Positions 6,592 to 56,820 of a DNA stretch of 64,000 nucleotides are shown one piece after another. A program made the position numbers and the translations under genes. This stretch comes from Pyropia yezoensis (lineage: Eukaryota > Rhodophyta > Bangiophyceae > Bangiales > Bangiaceae), in contig CM020619.1 of NCBI GenBank assembly GCA_009829735.1, positions 3,788,590 through 3,852,589 of the forward strand, read 5' to 3'. The notes beneath the pieces were generated by a model that saw only the letters and a program-made list of their open reading frames with translations, was not told where the DNA came from and ran no database searches. Numbering within the stretch: the first letter of the stretch is position 1; each line of letters starts with the position of its first letter.

Positions 6592-6952
6592 GCCACCGCG
6601 GAGAAGGGGCGGACGTGCCGGGCGCGCACGAGCGCCCGGGGCCGCTGCGACTCACGCGTTCAAGGGTCCTGCCACACCGTCTGGCCAACCCCCCCCCCTC
6701 AGGCGCCCCCGCCACCGGCGTCCAGCGCCGCCGCGGGCGAGCGAGCCAAGGCCCCCCCCCCCGTCGCCTGCCCCGTTCGCCCTCTGCGGCTGGGACGGCA
6801 GGCCAACGCGGCGCGGAAGGGCGGGCCAACGCACACCCGCCCGCTACACCATCCGCCGGCGGGGGCGCCCCGGAGTCGGGGAACAAGACCGGCGTAGAAG
6901 GGATGTAGACATCAGTCCAGTAGTTACCCACATGTGGTTGCCAAATTAGGCA
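6592..6952 (-). repeat. DIRS-like element repeat A2
   Basis: 361-bp direct copy of A1, directly abutting B1. The tyrosine recombinase stop codon (TAA, 6946-6948) lies within its first bases. Confidence 0.9.
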
Positions 6953-8199
6953 TAACCACCTCTGCGGACCGGGCCGGGGATGCCATTCCAGTCGGAGATG
7001 TAGCGGCCAAAAAAGGCCCAGGCCGCCGCCGTGGGCAACGTCCGCGCGTCGACGTAGTGACGCGCCGTGGTCGCCGTCTCCTTGTGCTCCATGTAGGCGG
7101 CGACAACGGGGAGCGGGACGCCAATGGAGTTGGCCGCTGAGGCCGCCCCGCTCCGGATGCTCTTGCCTCGCCACTTGATGCCGACGGGTGGAGCGACCTG
7201 TAGCCAGGTCAACACTTGCTGCAGCCAGCGCGAGGTAACGCGCGGGCCGAGGGTCGCGCCTGGTGGCGCAAACAAGGGGGAAAACAGGCGGCCCCCGGCG
7301 GCCAGAAAGTCAGCTCGGTACGAGCGCAGGAAGCACAAGACAGGGTCGTTCTGGTACCCCAAAGGGTGCACCGGGATGGTAAAGGCCACGCGGCTCCCGG
7401 TGCGTAGCTCGCTCTTGTGGAAGGCCTGCTGTACATGCAGGCCCTCCGGCCCAAAGACGCAGTCCACCGCCCGCATCGCGGCCGCGGCCCCCGGCCGGTT
7501 GAACATCAAGTAGGCCGTCAGCAGCCCGGCACAGGTGCGGCGCTGGGCCGCGGTGGGGCTGGCTATGGCCAGCGTCAGGGCCCGGTCCATAACTACTGCG
7601 GGCAAAGGTCCAATGACTGAGGGCATGCTGCCCACGCTGGCTGCCTCCAGGCGCTGGTAACCCTTGCGCAAACGCTGGAAAATGGGGTTGCGCGTAGGTG
7701 GCTCGTAGCCGGCCAGCTCGTGCAGGGTGTCGAGCGGCGCGAGGTAGCCGCTGAGGGAGCCGTGTGCCACGGTGCCTTTAGCGTGCAGCCAGCCCACGTA
7801 GCCCGCCACCGTCGTGTAATCTGCCGGGAGTGCGCGCAGGTGACGATCTGCGCAATACGTGGCAAATCTGTCCCACGCGCCCATATAATTGCGCTTGGTA
7901 TTCGCCGTGTAAGCAGCCTGGAGAAGCGCTCGGGCACGTGTCGCCCCGTCGTGCCAGCCTAGGTGCGCGCCGGCGTACCGGGAAACGAGGCGCTCCCAGC
8001 GTACGGCTGGGGGTGGGCGGCCCGGCTGCCGCCGAACCGGAAGATGTCCACCCCCCACGACGGTGCTTGTGCCGGTGACGTCTGGTTGCCATGGATGGAG
8101 CGGCTGGCATTCTCCTCCAGGTGCAGGTGCTCCGTGCACGCCTCGGCCGCCCGCCAGTACCAGGGTTGTGCTGGCCACCGCGGCGCCACGAGCGTGAGC
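6946..8199 (-). CDS. Tyrosine recombinase of the DIRS-like element
   Basis: Third ORF, in a different frame from the RT-RNase H whose stop it meets. It would integrate the circular DNA intermediate by site-specific recombination. The N-terminal SAM-like core-binding part includes AYTANTKRNYMGAWDRF. The catalytic part has LMFNRPGAAAAMRAVD, GKSIRSGAASAANSIG (conserved Arg), AYMEHKETATTARHYVDA (His and nucleophile Tyr). No ATG precedes the domain in this frame: the first is at 7884, inside the core-binding part, so translation probably depends on frameshift or overlap with the upstream ORF. The final codons lie in B1 and the stop in A2. Confidence 0.88.
   Translation of the reverse strand, partial: AHARGAAVASTTLVLAGGRGVHGAPAPGGECQPLHPWQPDVTGTSTVVGGGHLPVRRQPGRPPPAVRWERLVSRYAGAHLGWHDGATRARALLQAAYTANTKRNYMGAWDRFATYCADRHLRALPADYTTVAGYVGWLHAKGTVAHGSLSGYLAPLDTLHELAGYEPPTRNPIFQRLRKGYQRLEAASVGSMPSVIGPLPAVVMDRALTLAIASPTAAQRRTCAGLLTAYLMFNRPGAAAAMRAVDCVFGPEGLHVQQAFHKSELRTGSRVAFTIPVHPLGYQNDPVLCFLRSYRADFLAAGGRLFSPLFAPPGATLGPRVTSRWLQQVLTWLQVAPPVGIKWRGKSIRSGAASAANSIGVPLPVVAAYMEHKETATTARHYVDARTLPTAAAWAFFGRYISDWNGIPGPVRRGGYA
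6953..6985 (-). repeat. DIRS-like element repeat B1
   Basis: 33-bp sequence overlapping the last codons of the recombinase and repeated at 6322-6354. It abuts A2, as required for split direct repeats. Confidence 0.85.
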
Positions 8200-10001
8200 T
8201 AGCACCCCGACCGGATCGCTTTGTCCACAACCGCGCCGACGAGGTGGAATGGTGGGTTGGCCCAACAGTTCTCGCTGCGCCAGTCGTGCTGGAGCGCCCG
8301 GATGCCCGCGCATCCTGGCGACCAGACGCAGGAGTAGAAGCGCCCGCACCGGGTGTTGAGTTGGCTGGCGAATAGGTCGACCGTGTGGGGACCAAAACGC
8401 CTTTCCATCTCCTCGAAGGTACAGACGGGAAGGCTCCAATCCGTCGAGTCGTTCTGCCTGGACAGCTTGTCCGCGTAGGCGTTGACCGCGCTGGGCAAGT
8501 GCTCTGCGCGCAGGGATAGGCCCCACTGCTCGCACAGCTCGTGTAGGCGCCTGAGCTTCCTCATCAGAGCCCTCGACTTGGACGACAGGGAGTTGATCAC
8601 GCCGACGGTTACAGTCGAATCCGACTTGATGAGCAGCCACGTGTCTCGCTCCGTAAGGAATTGACGGAAGCTCTCCAACGCCATTCGGACCGTCACCAGC
8701 TCGAGCTCGTTGATGCGGGAACTCCGCCGCACGGGGGAGTGGAACCCCCGAGCTGGGAGGGCGCCGTCCAGTACCGCCCCCCACCCCGACAGGCTTGCGT
8801 CCGTGTGGAGGACGTGCTTGGGGTGGGGCGGCCAGAGGGACCGGCCCAGGCCAGCGTGCTTGGTGAGGGTCGCCCACCACTGCAGGTCCTTCAAGCACTG
8901 ATGCGTCAGGCGGACGTCGCCCGTCAACGTGCCGCCCAGGGTGTTGTACAATGACCGCAAGTGGTAGCGCGCCGTCGTGACGGAGAGGGTGGTGGAAACT
9001 GCCATACCGCAAAAGCATCGCAGCGCCTTCGCCCTGACCCACCGGCGGTGGGATACCGCCCGCCGACACAGGGAGCTGGCGAGCCCCATAACCTTGGCTG
9101 CCCTCTCCGGACGGAGGATGAACAGGCCCCGTTGCGTGTTGACGAGATGCCCCAAGAGGGGCAGGGAGGTCGGCCCCGTCCACACCCCCTTCTTGGGGTG
9201 CAGCATCAACCCCAGTTCGTCCAGCAGGCCTCGGACCATTCCGCCCCCCTGTAGGGCGTCCAGGACCGTGGCGGGCTCCCCCTCCTGGGACGGAGGGGCT
9301 CCACCAAAGTCGTCCACGTAGGAAACGATGCGGAACCCCATGCGGCGGAGCTCCGCGACTACAGGGCGACACACTTTGGCCCAAAAGTACGGGGCAAGCC
9401 GTAGGCCGAAGTGCATGACCACCGGCTCGCAGACGCGCCCCAGGACCGTGAAACACAGGAAGGTACGGTCCCGGGGCTGCAGCTCCAGGTGGAAAAACGC
9501 ATCCTTGATGTCCCAGGACAAGAGGGCGTCGCCTGGGCGCAGCTGCGGGGCCAGATCGTACAAGGACTCGTACTCGAACTTGCGCTCCGATAAGTACTTG
9601 TTGGGGTGGCGATAGTCGATCACCATTCGCGGCTTGCCGGCCGACCAGGTGACGAATGCCCCAACCACGCAGCGGGCTCTGGCTGCCTCGCCACGGGAAA
9701 GCTCCCGGTAAAAGCCGTTGGCCAAGCCCCGCTCCAGCTCCCCTTCCAGAAACTCCCTGTCCCGCGGCGCGAGGAGGTAACCCTTGGCGTGCTGCCGCGG
9801 TGGAGGTGAAACCCACGGCAGGTGGATGCCATGGGCCAGGGTGTCCAGCACCCAAGGGGAGGCCCCGATGCGGCGCCACGCACCCAGGCAGCGCCGCACC
9901 TTCTCGGAAGGCGGACCCGTGGGGCCGGGGTCCGCCTGGGCAGTCGGCGAGCGTGGCGGCGGGTTGCCCCGATCCGTCGCCACGGCGCGAAAATCCGCGC
10001 T
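8199..10001 (-). CDS. Reverse transcriptase-RNase H of the DIRS-like element
   Basis: About 600 residues ending in TAG. The reverse transcriptase has the conserved KPRMVIDYRHPNKYL block, LSWDIKDAFFHLEL (first catalytic Asp), HFGLRLAPYFWAKV and the active-site box YVDDFGG. RNase H follows, with HTDASLSGWGAVLDG (Asp), ELELVTVRMALESF (Glu), KSDSTVTVGVINSLSSKSRA (Asp) and NAYADKLSRQ (Asp). A C-terminal VDLFASQLNTRC...WANPPF segment is typical of DIRS polyproteins. The frame is also open upstream through the Gag region, so the true start is unclear. The frame differs from both Gag and recombinase, so expression probably needs frameshifting or reinitiation. Confidence 0.9.
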   Translation of the reverse strand, partial: SADFRAVATDRGNPPPRSPTAQADPGPTGPPSEKVRRCLGAWRRIGASPWVLDTLAHGIHLPWVSPPPRQHAKGYLLAPRDREFLEGELERGLANGFYRELSRGEAARARCVVGAFVTWSAGKPRMVIDYRHPNKYLSERKFEYESLYDLAPQLRPGDALLSWDIKDAFFHLELQPRDRTFLCFTVLGRVCEPVVMHFGLRLAPYFWAKVCRPVVAELRRMGFRIVSYVDDFGGAPPSQEGEPATVLDALQGGGMVRGLLDELGLMLHPKKGVWTGPTSLPLLGHLVNTQRGLFILRPERAAKVMGLASSLCRRAVSHRRWVRAKALRCFCGMAVSTTLSVTTARYHLRSLYNTLGGTLTGDVRLTHQCLKDLQWWATLTKHAGLGRSLWPPHPKHVLHTDASLSGWGAVLDGALPARGFHSPVRRSSRINELELVTVRMALESFRQFLTERDTWLLIKSDSTVTVGVINSLSSKSRALMRKLRRLHELCEQWGLSLRAEHLPSAVNAYADKLSRQNDSTDWSLPVCTFEEMERRFGPHTVDLFASQLNTRCGRFYSCVWSPGCAGIRALQHDWRSENCWANPPFHLVGAVVDKAIRSGC

Positions 10002-11075
10002 AGGCGCGAGCGCCTGCCCGTGCAGCAGAGCCGCCCGCGCCACCGTCTCGCTTTTTCCCGCCGCCGCGCTTGCTTCCGCCACCGCTGCCTCCGCCTCCGC
10101 CTCCGCCACCGCCGCCCCCACCAGAGCCGCTGCCACCTCGGCCGCCGCCACCGCTCGGGTTGGGCGTGGTCTTCTTGGCACCGCGCTTGCACGGCGGGAC
10201 GTGGGTGAGGTCCCCGCCAGGCTGTCGGGCCACGACCTTGGCGGCGTTTTTGATGCGGTAGCCGTCGCGCTGGGCGCGGAATTGGCGCATCCCAAACCCG
10301 CGGTGCTGGTTAATTGCGGGGATGTCGGCATGTTCGTACTCCCGCGCAAGCAATTGGTCGGACTGCTTGGTCTCGAGGTAGTCGTACCGCTTGACCGCGA
10401 TGCGGTGCAGGCGCTTGAGGTACACGACAAGGGATCCGAAGCACGACTCGAGGTCGACGGCTGTGTAGGTGCCGTGGGCGTAGTAGGAGTCGGTGGCCTC
10501 GTTGATGGCCTCCTGGAGCCAGTAGCAGACTTGGTAGAGAGAGGTGGCCTCCATTCTGTCTCGGACGTTGTCGTGGAAGGCGGATAGAAAAGTGACATCT
10601 GTCGGGTCAAACGGGACGGGGAGGCCGTCCGGCTTGACCGCCCGCGCGGGAATCTCAAAGTCCTTGAGGTAGTCGCCGGGTTTGCCAATCTTGGTGTTGC
10701 TAAGCCCTCCAAAGGGGGAGGACCCGGCGTCGTTCCCGTCAGAGGAGGACGACGAGGGCGGACCGGGGCTCGATGCCCCACCGCCTGCGCCGGCGTCGCC
10801 CGTGTCGGAGGAGTCGGTGACAGAGCCACCCCCGCCTCGCGGGGCCCACCGGCACGGCCTGCCCCCCCCTCGCCGCCCGCAGGCGGCGCTCCGTCGCCTG
10901 TCCCGCCGGCGTGAACGGCACTCGTGGCCGCCGCTGCCGGCGGGTCCGGCGAGGGGTCTGCATCAGCCACCCCCTCGAGCGCGCGGATCTGGTCCAACGT
11001 GGTCGAGAGCTTACTCTGGAGGTCAGCAATGACCTCCGCTTGGGTCGTAGAGTGTGACCCGTCGCGTGAGCCCAT
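10000..11075 (-). CDS. Gag-like protein of the DIRS-like element, frame break inside
   Basis: First ORF of the element. From the ATG at 11075 the frame encodes a Gln/Leu/Lys-rich, coiled-coil-like start (ADLQSKLSTTLDQIRALEG), then runs into low complexity. The convincing protein continues in another frame, from SDGNDAGSSPFGG through DYLKDFEIPARAVKPDGLPV and MEATSLYQVCYWLQEA to a Gly/Lys/Arg-rich tail ending at 10000. The switch must fall near the C/G tract around 10860-10870. The basic, Gly-rich tail suits nucleic-acid binding in a capsid precursor. There is no CCHC knuckle. The break may be a sequencing indel in a homopolymer or real decay. Assignment as Gag rests on position and composition. 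Confidence 0.55.
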
Positions 11076-11155
11076 CCCGGACGTAGGCACCCGGGAGCAA
11101 CAGCGTCAAGCCACAGGCGCGCGGCCTGGGAAGCCCCTTCGGAGAGGCGGTTGAA

Positions 11156-26619: not shown

Positions 26620-29600
26620 CTAGTACCGCTCCCCAAACTTGGGAAATGCCACGGCCGCGGCCGCCCGCGCGTCCGCCTCCACGTCGGCCCAGCCGAGCGC
26701 GGCCAGAAGTGCAAACCGCTCCACGGTCGTCGCAGCCAGCGACCGCCCGCCCACAGCGGGAGGGGCCAGCCCGGACAACGCCCGCAGCGCCGTCGCAGGG
26801 CACCCGCGGAGGCGCTCGCGGGCGGAGACTAGAAGAGCCACGTCCGCAACTGTGGCGCCCGACACGGACGCGTGCGCCTTGTCGCCCGCCACCCCGCCGC
26901 TGGCGGCAGGGGCCGTCGACGTGGGTGCCGAGCCTGCCGCGGGGGCAGACACGTCGGCCCAGGCAGCCAGGGCCGTAAATGCCTCCTCAAACGCCGCCAC
27001 CTCCGCGGCCGCACCACTACCAGCGGCAGCGTCACCACCGCCACAAAGCAGCGGGGGGGCGACGGTGCTGCCACTGGCGGCCACCATTGCCGTGGTCGCC
27101 ACCGCCGCAGTCGCACGAGCCTTGCGGAAAAGGGCCTCGATGAGAGTGGAACGCGTCGTGTCTTGCCGCTTCCGCTCCGCCACAGCCGCCTCGTCGTCGG
27201 CATTGACGCGGGTACCGAAGTGCGCGGCAAGCGCCGTTGCATCGACGGCTCCAACCACCCCGTCGGCGGCGGCAACCACAGCCGCCCAATCAGGCGGATC
27301 ACTGCCCATCGCTGCCCCAATCGACGGGGGCGACACAATGACGTTAGCACCAGCGCTGTCGCCAAGGTCTTCACCACCAGCAATGGGCGCTAAAGCGGCC
27401 GCGTCGGGAGACGACACGCCCAGCGTCGCTGCCGCTGCAGCTGCCACCCGTCGCTGAGCGACGGAGTCGACCAGCTGAAGTCGCATCAGCAATACGACCG
27501 TGTCGTTGGCCTTTTCAGCCAAGTGCGAGTCGGCCAGCGCGGTAAAGCGCGCCAGGTGGGTGGGCGCATCGGACAGATTCGCCCCGTTTGCTTCCTTGAC
27601 CACCTTTTTCATGACACCCACGCGGGCGTCTGACAGCTGCGATGTCACCCAGCTAGCCACGTCCTGGTTCTTTCCTTCGTCCTTTGCGTCAGCCGCCGCA
27701 GCCACCTTGGGCGCGTCTGCTGCCGACGTAGAGTCAGAGGTCGACGGTCCGTCAACAGCGGCGGCGGTAGCGGCGGCGCTGGCCTGGCCAGCCACCTTTT
27801 CACCACTTTCACCCGATTTGGTAGTGGCCGCGGACTTGGCGCCCGCGGGCCCGCTCGATGCGCGCTCCGTCTTGGGCGTTTTCTCTCCTGACATTGTAGG
27901 AGACACGACCCACGTCAGCCCATATTTGGCCAGCCCCGACGAGATCGTGCCCGCCCGCACGGCGCCATCGGGCGCCAATACCCGGTCCACAACCAAGTTG
28001 CCCACCAGCTTGTCGCCCGTAGCCACCCACTTCGGTAGCGAAGCCTTTTTGGGCGGTGCCAGCCAAAAGGCCAGTGATGCACCAGGCGCGAGCGTGGTGC
28101 GCCCCGAAGAGCTGATGGCCAGCTTGCTCCCAACGCCTCCGTCTGCACCCGCCGCCAGCGCGGCAGCGTGTGCTGATCCGTAGGGGTCAAGCGAGATCGC
28201 TGAGGCAAGCTTCATGCTTACCGTCGCGCACAGGTCGGTTAGTGCCTCTAGCAGCCCCATCCGCTCATGCCGAACAAATGCGCGAATGGTGTAAGTGCCC
28301 TTGACCGACAGGGAGGCAAACGACGGGTAAATGTCGCTGGTGTGCACAAGTTTGCCGTTGGAGTCGTACACCATCACGTACGGACCACCCTCCACCTCGG
28401 AATTGTACACAGCGTGGTTGAGACCTGGGAAGACAACCGCCACATCCACCCCATTGTTGGAGCCGCTGCTCTCGGAAGCGGACAGGGAGAGCGTGTACTC
28501 CAGCTCCAGTTGGTAGATGCAACGCGCGTCGGGTAGCAAGTCCCGGTCGCGAGGCAGCGCAGTTATCATTGCCAGCCTCGGTGGCAGCACACGGCTGGCA
28601 TGCATCATCGACGCCTTGACGCCCACACCAGCGAGGACTGGCGGGGCCTCGGACGCCAATGAAAGCCCCGTGGTGCCCCGCTCCGCCGCCTCGGCCGCTG
28701 CAGCGTACGCAACCTCATCAGATGCATCGACGGTGAGGCGACGAGCAGACCCACCCTGCGGCAGCTGGTTGGTCAACAGCACGCTCGGGGAGGAGGCCGC
28801 ACCGGCACCCACCGACAACATTGATGGGTTGACCGACAAGCCCGAGAAGGTCACCTCCAGGCGTCGCACCGTGCACGCGCCGGCCGACGACCACAGCTGC
28901 GCGAGGGCCAGTTCCATCGTGACCCCCCCGCTGACGGGGATGATGACAGATCCCACCCCGTCAGGAGAGAGAGTGAAAACGTGACGCGGCCCACCGGGTG
29001 CACTCCCGGGCACTATCTGCACCGCGTGAAGCTGAACTGTGCGAGCGGAAATGACGCTGTCGGCAGCCGCCACGCCGGCAGGCCCCAGGAACTCGTCCGC
29101 AGTCCCCGCCACCAGCGCGACGCGCGCAAAGGTAGCCGCCGCGGGCGGGAGCACAAACGTGCGTACGACACCGCCGGGAGTCAATGGAAGGTTCTCAACG
29201 ACGAGTGAGCCGACACCGCCATCGCCGCCCGCCAGCAGCAGCGGCTTCACCACAGTCACGGGCACGCGAAAAAGCGGGCCTCGAGGCTCGGCCCAGTCCC
29301 CGGAATTGGCAGCCGCGGTTGGTCGCGCCGCGCCCGCAGACGGAGCCATGTAGCCCGCCACCTCACCATAGTGCATGCGCCCGGGCGCCAGACCTGTGGG
29401 GTCCACCGCAATGGGAAATTGGCGACCCCCACCATAGAGGCGCACGCCGGCGGGCGCCGATATCCACGGCGCTGACGGAACAAGAGAGATGTCGAGCTCA
29501 AGCTCCGACACCATCTCAGCAGCCGCCGCCGAACGATCGGGCAGTGCGTCGTTGGCCACGTCCAAGTGCACAAGCCACTTGGAAACGGAGCGGCACTCAT

Positions 29601-49491: not shown

Positions 49492-49496
49492 AAAAA
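49492..49496 (-). terminator. Pol III terminator of the tRNA gene
   Basis: TTTTT on the minus strand, 20 nt after the discriminator base of the tRNA gene, as expected for RNA polymerase III. Confidence 0.6.
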
Positions 49497-49516: not shown

Positions 49517-49620
49517 CTCTCCTGGCGAGGAAATCGGGACAAACTCGAACTCGCGATTTCCAGCTTTCATGCTCCGACGAGACATAAGGCTGGCGCCTTA
49601 ACCGACTAGGCTACAGGAGA
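49517..49620 (-). tRNA. tRNA gene with two introns, anticodon probably UAU (Ile)
   Basis: A complete cloverleaf folds on the minus strand. Acceptor TCTCCTG/CAGGAGA (7 bp), linker TA, D stem GCCT/AGGC with loop AGTCGGTTA, base 26 G, anticodon stem CCAGC/GCTGG, variable loop AAATC, T stem GCGAG/CTCGC, discriminator G. The anticodon loop has 24 nt instead of 7 (17-nt intron) and the T loop has 20 nt instead of 7 (13-nt intron after TTCGA). Removing both leaves 74 nt. With the first intron after position 36 the loop is CTTATAA, anticodon UAU, as in isoleucine tRNAs. The U1 and G73 are unusual for Ile, so the amino acid is less sure than the gene. An A box (TAGCCTAGTCGG) is intact, and the B box is interrupted by the second intron. 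Confidence 0.8.
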
Positions 49621-54985: not shown

Positions 54986-56820
54986 ATGGCCGCCGCAGCC
55001 CCCCCCCCCCCCGGCGGCAGCGGCCGTCTCGTGCGGTCACGGCGCTGGCGGGCCTGGCCGTCGCTGCGGCGACCGCCACCACCGCCGGCCGCCCCGTCGC
55101 TGGAGCTGTGGCCACCACCGGGGAGCCCGTGGAGCTGACCTCCGACAACTTTGGGGCGCTCGTCCGCAACGCGGACGCCCCCGCCCTGGTCGCCTTTACC
55201 GCCCCCTGGTGCCACAGCGCCGCGTGTGGGGCGCTGCGGACGACGCTCGGGGCGGTGGCGGCGGTGGCGCCCGCCGTGACGGTCGGCCTCGTGGACGCAG
55301 ACGCCCACCGGTCGCTGGGCGCCGCGTACGGCGTGCGGTCCTTCCCCACCCTCAAGTGGTTCCCGGCGGGCGCGTCGGCGACCGCCGAGGACGTGCCCGC
55401 GGCGGTGGCCGCCGCGGGGGCCACCGCCCCGCTGGACGCCGCCACCCTGGGCGACTATGTCAGCGGCCGTGCCGCCGACGCGGCGGCGGCGGCGGCGCTG
55501 CCGCCGGCCACCCTCCTCGACGTGCTCCTCACCGACACGCGGGCCGGGGCGTGGCTCCTCGCCGAGCGGGTGCGGCTGGTGGCGGCCAACACGGTTGGCG
55601 ACGGTGGCAGCAGCAGCAGCGCCGTCGCGGGGGGGGGGGACGCCGGCGCGTCGTTGACGTCGTCGTCGACGGCGGGCCGCCTGGCAGTGGTGGACGCGCT
55701 GCTCGCCGAGCGGGCGCGACGGGTGGGGGACCACCCCTACCTGTCCTCGGCGGCGGACTTTGTGGGCACCGTCAAGGACGCGGCGGTGGCCAAGGCGGCG
55801 TCGCTTGCCGCCGCCGTGCGCGGCGCGGTTGGCGGGGGGGCGCCCGCACAGCCGGCCGCCGCCGCCGCAGACGCTGCGCGTGACGGCGTTGACGCGGCGT
55901 CGCGGGCGGCGGCCGACGCTGCCGGTCGCGTGCGCGGGGCGGCCTCTGATGCGGCCGACGCGGCGGCTGACGCCGCGTCGCGGGGCGGCCGTGTGGCGGG
56001 GGCGGCGGGCGACCGGGCGGCCGACGCGGCGGGCACCGCCGCCGACGCTGCGGCGGGGGCGGCGGCCGACGCGGCCGACGCGGCCTACGCGACGGGCGCG
56101 TCGGCGGCCGACAGCGTCGCCGACGCGGCGGGCCGCGTCGCCGACGCGGCCTACGTGGGCGGCTCCCACGCGGCGGGCTTTGCGTCCCGCGTCGCCGGCC
56201 GGGCGGGCGACCGCGCCGCCGCGGCGGCGGCGTACGCGCGGGACAGTGAGGCGGCGACGGCGGCGGCGGCGGCGGCAGCGCGGGCGGAAGCGGCCGTCAC
56301 GGCCGCGGGCGCGTCGGCGTCTGAGTCGCTGCGCGCCACCGCGGCGACGGCGCGGGAGCGGTCGCTGGCCGCCGCTGAGGCGGCCTATGAGCGGGCGCTG
56401 GAGCTGGGCGCCGTCGCGTCGGCGCGGGCGGCCGACGCCGGGGGGGCGGTGGCCGACGCGGCGCGGGGGGCGGCGGACGGGGCGGCGGACCGCGGCGCCG
56501 CCGCCGCGGACGCGGTGGTGGACGCGGCGGGGGTGGCGGCGGAGCGGGGCGCCGCCGCGGGAGGGGTGGTGGTGGACGCGGCGGGGGCGGCGGCGGATGT
56601 GGCGGTCGCGCGGGGGGGGCAGGCGCTGGACGCGGCCGCCGACGTGGCGGGAGCGGCGCGGGTTAAGGCTGGCGAGGCGGCCGCCGCCGCGCGGGTCAAG
56701 GCGGCAGACGCGGCGGCGGCGGCGGCGCGGGGGGCCGAGGCGGCCAAGAATGTGGCGGCGGATAAGGTGATTGACGCGGCGCAGGGGGCCAAGGCGGTGA
56801 ACTTGGAAAAGGAGCTCTGA
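54986..56820 (+). CDS. Thioredoxin-domain protein with LEA-like helical tail, frame break at start
   Basis: The ATG at 54986 opens MAAAAPPPP, then a run of 14 C (54999-55012) must gain or lose a base to join the main frame, which continues RRQRPSRAVTALAGLAVAAA, a likely signal or transit peptide. The thioredoxin/PDI-type domain (55130-55460) has PVELTSDNFGALV, LVAFTAPWCHSAACGALRTT and YGVRSFPTLKWFPAG (cis-Pro). The active site is CHSAAC, two residues longer than the usual CxxC. From about 55740 to the stop the protein is a long amphipathic Ala/Asp/Arg repeat (AADAAGRV, ASDAADAAADAAS and so on) resembling LEA group 3 or apolipoprotein-like helices. A role in the secretory pathway or plastid and in stress protection is inference. 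Redox activity is uncertain. Confidence 0.75.

Follow-up and report, generated by a model that had tools for sequence, protein, structure and literature searches.

The window analysed here, a stretch of 64,000 nucleotides from the red alga Pyropia yezoensis, very probably contains a nuclear tRNA gene with the anticodon UAU, single-copy as far as searched, whose two introns would be spliced out by proteins. The gene lies on the minus strand at 49517..49620 and is 104 nt long, with a predicted mature length of 74 nt. The most likely reading is a spliced tRNA gene whose introns lie at positions 37/38 and 59/60. Excision of 17 nt at 37/38 (49566..49582) and of 13 nt from the T loop at 59/60 (49531..49543) leaves 74 nt in which all four stems pair without mismatch. 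The 5′ acceptor strand TCTCCTG (positions 1-7; 49614..49620) pairs with 49518-49524, and N73 is a G (49517). The D arm, containing the A box, has no insert and reads GCCT AGTCGGTTA AGGC (49595..49611); the anticodon TAT (34-36; 49584..49586) is followed by G37 (49583). A run of TTTTT on the same strand, 20 nt 3′ of the gene (49492..49496), is probably the stop signal for RNA polymerase III.

ARAGORN recognised the 74-nt form, from which both inserts are removed, as tRNA-Ile(tat) with every stem paired. It made no call for the unspliced sequence or for the form lacking the anticodon-loop insert alone, and the form lacking the T-loop insert alone was called Ser(tga); this call uses one of the anticodon-loop cuts, yielding Leu(UAA) or Ser(UGA), that we rejected by hand. 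The gene was absent from the ARAGORN results on the whole window, the Rfam tRNA model gave it 25.9 bits, below the threshold of 29, and the genome-wide search with RF00005 did not list it even at E 10. A cloverleaf script that allows inserts found it with a score of 53.1 as the sole match of at least 42 on both strands of the window; among 313 dinucleotide-shuffled single strands, scanned for scores of 36 and above, the best was 44.5. A covariance model made without the gene, from 16 further tRNAs of P. yezoensis, and allowing a T-loop insert of any sequence gave it 68.3 bits (E about 1.6e-20, roughly calibrated), and the gene was the only match within the 64-kb window up to E 10. An earlier model that included the gene gave 71.3 bits, which is circular. 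A tRNA gene with an intron in the canonical loop and another in the T loop, folding into a 74-nt cloverleaf once 17 and 13 nt are taken out, had been proposed in a preliminary description of this DNA; both proposals are borne out by ARAGORN and the covariance model, and the strand, which had not been named, is the minus strand. ARAGORN also called two tRNAs inside long reading frames of the window, Ala(cgc) at 27466-27560 (-) and Gly(gcc) at 56109-56200 (+). We regard these as false, the cloverleaf script and the Rfam search giving them no support. Overlapping long reading frames at 6946-11105 (-) resemble, on inspection by eye, a tyrosine recombinase and a reverse transcriptase with RNase H, a combination known from DIRS-type retroelements.

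The position of the T-loop cut is indicated by a pairing that the inserts of this genome have in common. With the cut at 59/60, pairs form between T-loop bases 54-57 and the sixth- to third-last bases of the insert at 66 of 84 positions in 21 distinct inserts (23 T-insert places minus the two identical copies L071 and L079); 5000 shuffles of the inserts averaged 35.1 and reached 52 at most. Bases 55 and 56 are paired in all 21 inserts, base 54 in 10 and base 57 in 14. Cuts at 57/58, 58/59 and 60/61 gave 39, 31 and 10 pairs, not above their own shuffles, and were rejected. The three tRNA-Met inserts end alike (CGAT, CGAT, GGAT), and some others preserve the pairing through G-U (TGGA, CGGT), so it is apparently the pairing and not only a sequence motif that is kept. 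In the UAU gene, bases 54-57 (TTCG, 49546..49549) would form the 5′ strand of the central helix of a bulge-helix-bulge (BHB) and the intron bases CGAT (49533..49536) its 3′ strand, with three of four pairs and a U-U mismatch at U54. A cut at 53/54 was rejected by hand; it would leave the T loop without TTC.

Similar pairing is found at the other two sites. For seven D-loop inserts cut at 20a/21 (20/21 for Lys), L032 and L072 of them added by hand from unparsed genes, 26 of 28 pairs are formed against a null mean of 14.2, a number reached in none of 20000 shuffles; these cut points were picked with paralogs and pairing in view, which makes the test less independent than that of the T loop. Of the 19 anticodon-loop inserts at 37/38, the UAU gene counted, 17 have a third-last base that pairs with C32 (a G in the UAU gene). 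The exceptions are the Val(AAC) gene L090 and the place L107, the latter of doubtful identity. L107 (C1:27480394) is tRNA-like; its loop reads ATTTCGG, and its 16-nt insert does not form the usual C32-G pair. At both cuts of the UAU gene the BHB is present in a relaxed form only.

A different helix had been proposed in the preliminary description, in which CGATTT of the second intron pairs with AAATCG of the variable region as the BHB. The complementarity exists and is even longer: GGAAATCG (49554..49561) is an 8-bp complement of CGATTTCC (49529-49536), an event seen in only 4 of 2000 shuffles. As a splice motif it has to be rejected, being peculiar to the UAU gene; at the other 22 T-insert places such a complement reaches at most 5 bp, and the feature in common is the pairing of 54-57 with the insert end. 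The lowest-energy fold of the UAU precursor (-38.6 kcal/mol) uses the 8-bp helix and not the cloverleaf, which with its stems enforced is weaker by 1 kcal/mol (-37.6 kcal/mol), and this alternative helix may slow folding or splicing of the precursor. Even with the stems enforced, energy folding of this precursor does not favour the proposed helix of 54-57 with the intron end; the best T-loop helix then joins the stretch from 57 to intron base 2 with intron bases 9 to 13. Folding of the UAU precursor alone thus fails to predict the splice helix, and the evidence for it comes from the 21 inserts taken together. The mature 74-nt sequence folds as a cloverleaf.

With the cut at 37/38 the anticodon is UAU, which means isoleucine in the standard code, and by its anticodon the gene is a tRNA-Ile. 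We file it by anticodon and leave charging aside, because G37 and G73 differ from the A37 and A73 of the genome's tRNA-Ile(AAU); isoleucine is thus a prediction from the anticodon. G37, an unusual base that had escaped the preliminary description, is abnormal after U36. That description had called U1 and G73 odd, which is true for an isoleucine tRNA, but U1-A72 together with G73 is not odd for this genome, as its tRNA-Asp and tRNA-Glu(UUC) genes have the same. Both features would suit a tRNA that is spliced but charged with an amino acid other than isoleucine, or one cut at 36/37, which would give A37. This alternative, which overlaps with the main explanation, is unlikely in our view: among the anticodon-loop cuts compared by hand, that at 36/37 forfeits the C32-G pair present in 17 of the 19 inserts, and a UAU anticodon speaks for isoleucine.

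No second intact gene for this anticodon was found. A pattern of the Ile(UAU) D arm and anticodon, which is blind to genes interrupted in the D arm, matched 12 places with up to three mismatches; only the UAU gene matched without mismatch, and the remaining 11 are Lys, Val and Ile(AAU) genes. A DNA search with the gene against its own genome returned only itself. Another intact gene for the same anticodon, which together with absence of transcription here had been named beforehand as a finding that would speak against the proposal, is therefore absent within the reach of this pattern. This bears on the possibility that the sequence is a tRNA pseudogene, in which two chance insertions sit in a dead copy that is never spliced. 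G37 and G73 are unusual for a tRNA-Ile, the codon AUA is seldom used (6 of the 101 Ile codons in five long window reading frames, chosen by eye as likely genes), and insertions in the D or T arm of eukaryotic tRNA genes are mostly taken for pseudogenes according to a review (PMC4090602). A dead copy would hardly be expected, however, to keep all four stems paired without mismatch, to have a T run on its 3′ side, to follow with its insert the cut rule of 20 other distinct T inserts and to be the one gene found for its anticodon, and we consider a pseudogene quite improbable.

Introns in the T loop are uncommon apart from archaea and a few algae, but interrupted tRNA genes are common in this genome. 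The preliminary description had held T-loop introns to be very rare in eukaryotes beyond Cyanidioschyzon and had suggested looking for similar insertions; in P. yezoensis they were found in 23 of 63 parsed tRNA places with 13 anticodons, which does not agree with rarity here. D-loop inserts occur in 10 and anticodon-loop inserts in 19 of the 63 places, in what is, for all three counts, an incomplete and biased sample. Twenty places have no insert, 12 an anticodon-loop insert only, 8 a D-loop insert only and 14 a T-loop insert only; double inserts are found in the anticodon and T loops (7) or the D and T loops (2). The introns of the UAU gene thus belong to a genome-wide set of putative short introns at 20 or 20a/21, 37/38 and 59/60. 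TTTT lies within 45 nt downstream in 56 of the 63 places, compared with 12 of 63 in the 40 nt upstream, with only about 20 nt visible on each side of genes with short flanks.

The places were collected from strong and weak Rfam matches and from searches with D-arm patterns. From the genome search with RF00005, 58 of 63 matches were read (42 of 43 strong ones, C2:31159928 being omitted, and 16 of 20 weak ones). The patterns and one further search added 20 places to give 78, of which 63 were parsed and 15 were not: two Ala, five Gly, two Trp (one with a D insert), an Arg(ACG) with a D insert, a degenerate Thr copy, three Asp-like places without a paired 5′ acceptor strand and one unclear case. 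Eight pattern matches without a cloverleaf (L119, L123-L125, L127, L129, L130, L136) stand outside the 78. Of the 29 matches of one pattern search, 13 were covered, 7 of them known and 6 newly fetched; its backward control gave 60, so that most of the matches are probably due to chance. L065, L073 and L074 are Asp-like with a T-loop insert and an unpaired 5′ acceptor strand, and are either truncated copies or genes with an additional interruption of the acceptor stem.

Genes with the same exons and unlike inserts are particularly informative. The two Asn genes do not differ in any of 74 exon bases, and one has an 11-nt T insert whereas the other has none. Three Met genes (0 of 73 exon differences) have unlike inserts at the two sites that are interrupted in the UAU gene, 37/38 and 59/60. 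Of four Val(CAC) genes with the same exons, one is without insert and three have unlike inserts at 37/38. Two Ser(CGA) genes (0 of 82 differences) have unlike T inserts, and two more differ at 1 to 3 exon bases. Two Glu(CUC) genes with identical exons have inserts at 37/38 that differ from each other; a third gene, whose exons look the same by eye, has its insert in the D loop. The Ile(AAU) copy with a T insert differs from an intact copy at 2 of 74 exon bases, a compensating change of a T-stem pair from A-T to C-G. Unlike introns or different sites on identical or nearly identical exons were seen in L121, L122 and L128, in L133-L135, and in L034, L076, L117 and L118. Inserts that vary freely between fixed exons are what is expected of introns, and the pattern suggests rapid intron turnover at fixed sites. 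Because genes with identical exons have no intron, unlike introns or introns at different sites, a continuing insertion process would be a plausible reading. New introns might perhaps arise by the splicing endonuclease (SEN) and ligase acting in reverse, followed by reverse transcription. It is tempting to speculate, and we do so tentatively, that red seaweeds gain and lose tRNA introns fast at 20 or 20a/21, 37/38 and 59/60, that insertion is still going on and that the red-algal ancestor already had the trait.

Domain matches, as opposed to full gene models, indicate that genes for the splicing endonuclease are present in the genome: SEN2, SEN34, SEN54 and, weakly, SEN15. PF01974 matches two places, one resembling Sen34 structures (best E 5.7e-15) and the other Sen2 structures (5e-10). 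SEN54 was found with PF12928 (50.1 bits); the SEN15 match with PF09631 at C2:10189081-10189524 is weak (25.7 bits at a cut-off of 22, E 7.2e-4). PF02778 had no match in the P. yezoensis genome. In the model that we prefer, that of a spliced tRNA gene with two introns, RNA polymerase III would transcribe the 104-nt gene, and in the precursor T-loop bases 54-57 would pair with the end of the 13-nt intron and so place the cut at 59/60, while at 37/38 C32 would pair with the third base from the end of the 17-nt intron. The SEN endonuclease would then cut out both introns and a tRNA ligase would join the exons. The product would be a 74-nt tRNA that, once charged, reads the rare codon AUA. All of these steps, from transcription to decoding, are predicted from the DNA.

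The closest relative of the UAU gene is the tRNA-Ile(UAU) of Cyanidioschyzon merolae (PMC9602550), and the parallel drawn in the preliminary description is strengthened by the host itself being a red alga. Both genes have the anticodon UAU, an intron at 37/38, one in the T arm, and BHB motifs. The C. merolae gene has three introns, at 12/13, 37/38 and 53/54, and its precursor with all introns and an intermediate were seen by RT-PCR (PMC9602550); the gene described here has two and none in the D arm, and the T-arm site, 53/54 in the one and 59/60 in the other, is not shared. Many nuclear tRNA genes with BHB introns are a feature of both algae: in C. merolae 23 of 43 contain introns and 4 more are both permuted and intron-containing, and a permuted Gly gene has a T-loop intron at 55/56 (PMC3978253). 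While 11 of the 43 are permuted there (PMC3978253), no permuted gene was seen incidentally in P. yezoensis. Junctions of the permuted genes are at 20/21, 37/38, 50/51 and 59/60 (PMC3978253), three of which (20/21, 37/38 and 59/60) match P. yezoensis intron sites, but a circularly permuted or split arrangement of the UAU gene is refuted, as near to certainty as such data go, because its halves stand in normal 5′ to 3′ order within one 104-nt stretch and its acceptor strands pair. Sen15 is described as not found in C. merolae (PMC4090602, PMC3978253), in contrast to the weak match in P. yezoensis. D- and T-arm introns also occur in the nucleomorph of Guillardia theta, some of whose genes have two or three (PMC4090602). 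It differs in being a reduced endosymbiont genome, with non-canonical inserts of 3-24 nt (PMC4090602), many of them without a defined BHB (PMC3978253). Archaeal non-canonical tRNA introns are alike in BHB, in their D- and T-loop sites and in numbers of up to three per gene (PMC8450103, PMC6379350); archaea use EndA, whereas P. yezoensis has a set of eukaryote type.

The kind of gene is therefore already known; new, as far as seen, are the host, the extent, the set of three intron sites and the paralogs with the same exons and unlike introns. The eukaryotic cases of introns in the D and T arms are, according to a review, C. merolae and nucleomorphs (PMC4090602), and the paper on tRNAscan-SE 2.0 describes eukaryotic tRNA genes as limited to one intron (PMC8450103). 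In the titles and abstract openings listed, we saw no report of D- or T-loop tRNA introns in Pyropia or other seaweeds. Two P. yezoensis genome papers do not mention tRNA in their main text, among them PMC7423979, in which the scaffolds measure 43.6, 34.3 and 29.4 Mbp and the GC content is 65%. Pum, the one red alga in a survey of 50 plant species, is listed there with 56 tRNA genes (PMC12652284).

The known kind is now extended to a seaweed, P. yezoensis, which is cultivated, edible (nori) and multicellular and has a 107-Mb genome. That such an alga has many genes of this kind argues that neither genome shrinkage nor a hot acid habitat is their sole cause. The UAU gene was missed by a generic model, and the tRNA sets of such algae may be incomplete in standard annotation. 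The SEN endonuclease of P. yezoensis should be a eukaryotic enzyme that cuts outside the anticodon loop, and its weak SEN15 match is of interest given the reported lack of a Sen15 homolog in C. merolae. Finally, the sets of paralogs with the same exons allow the study of intron gain.
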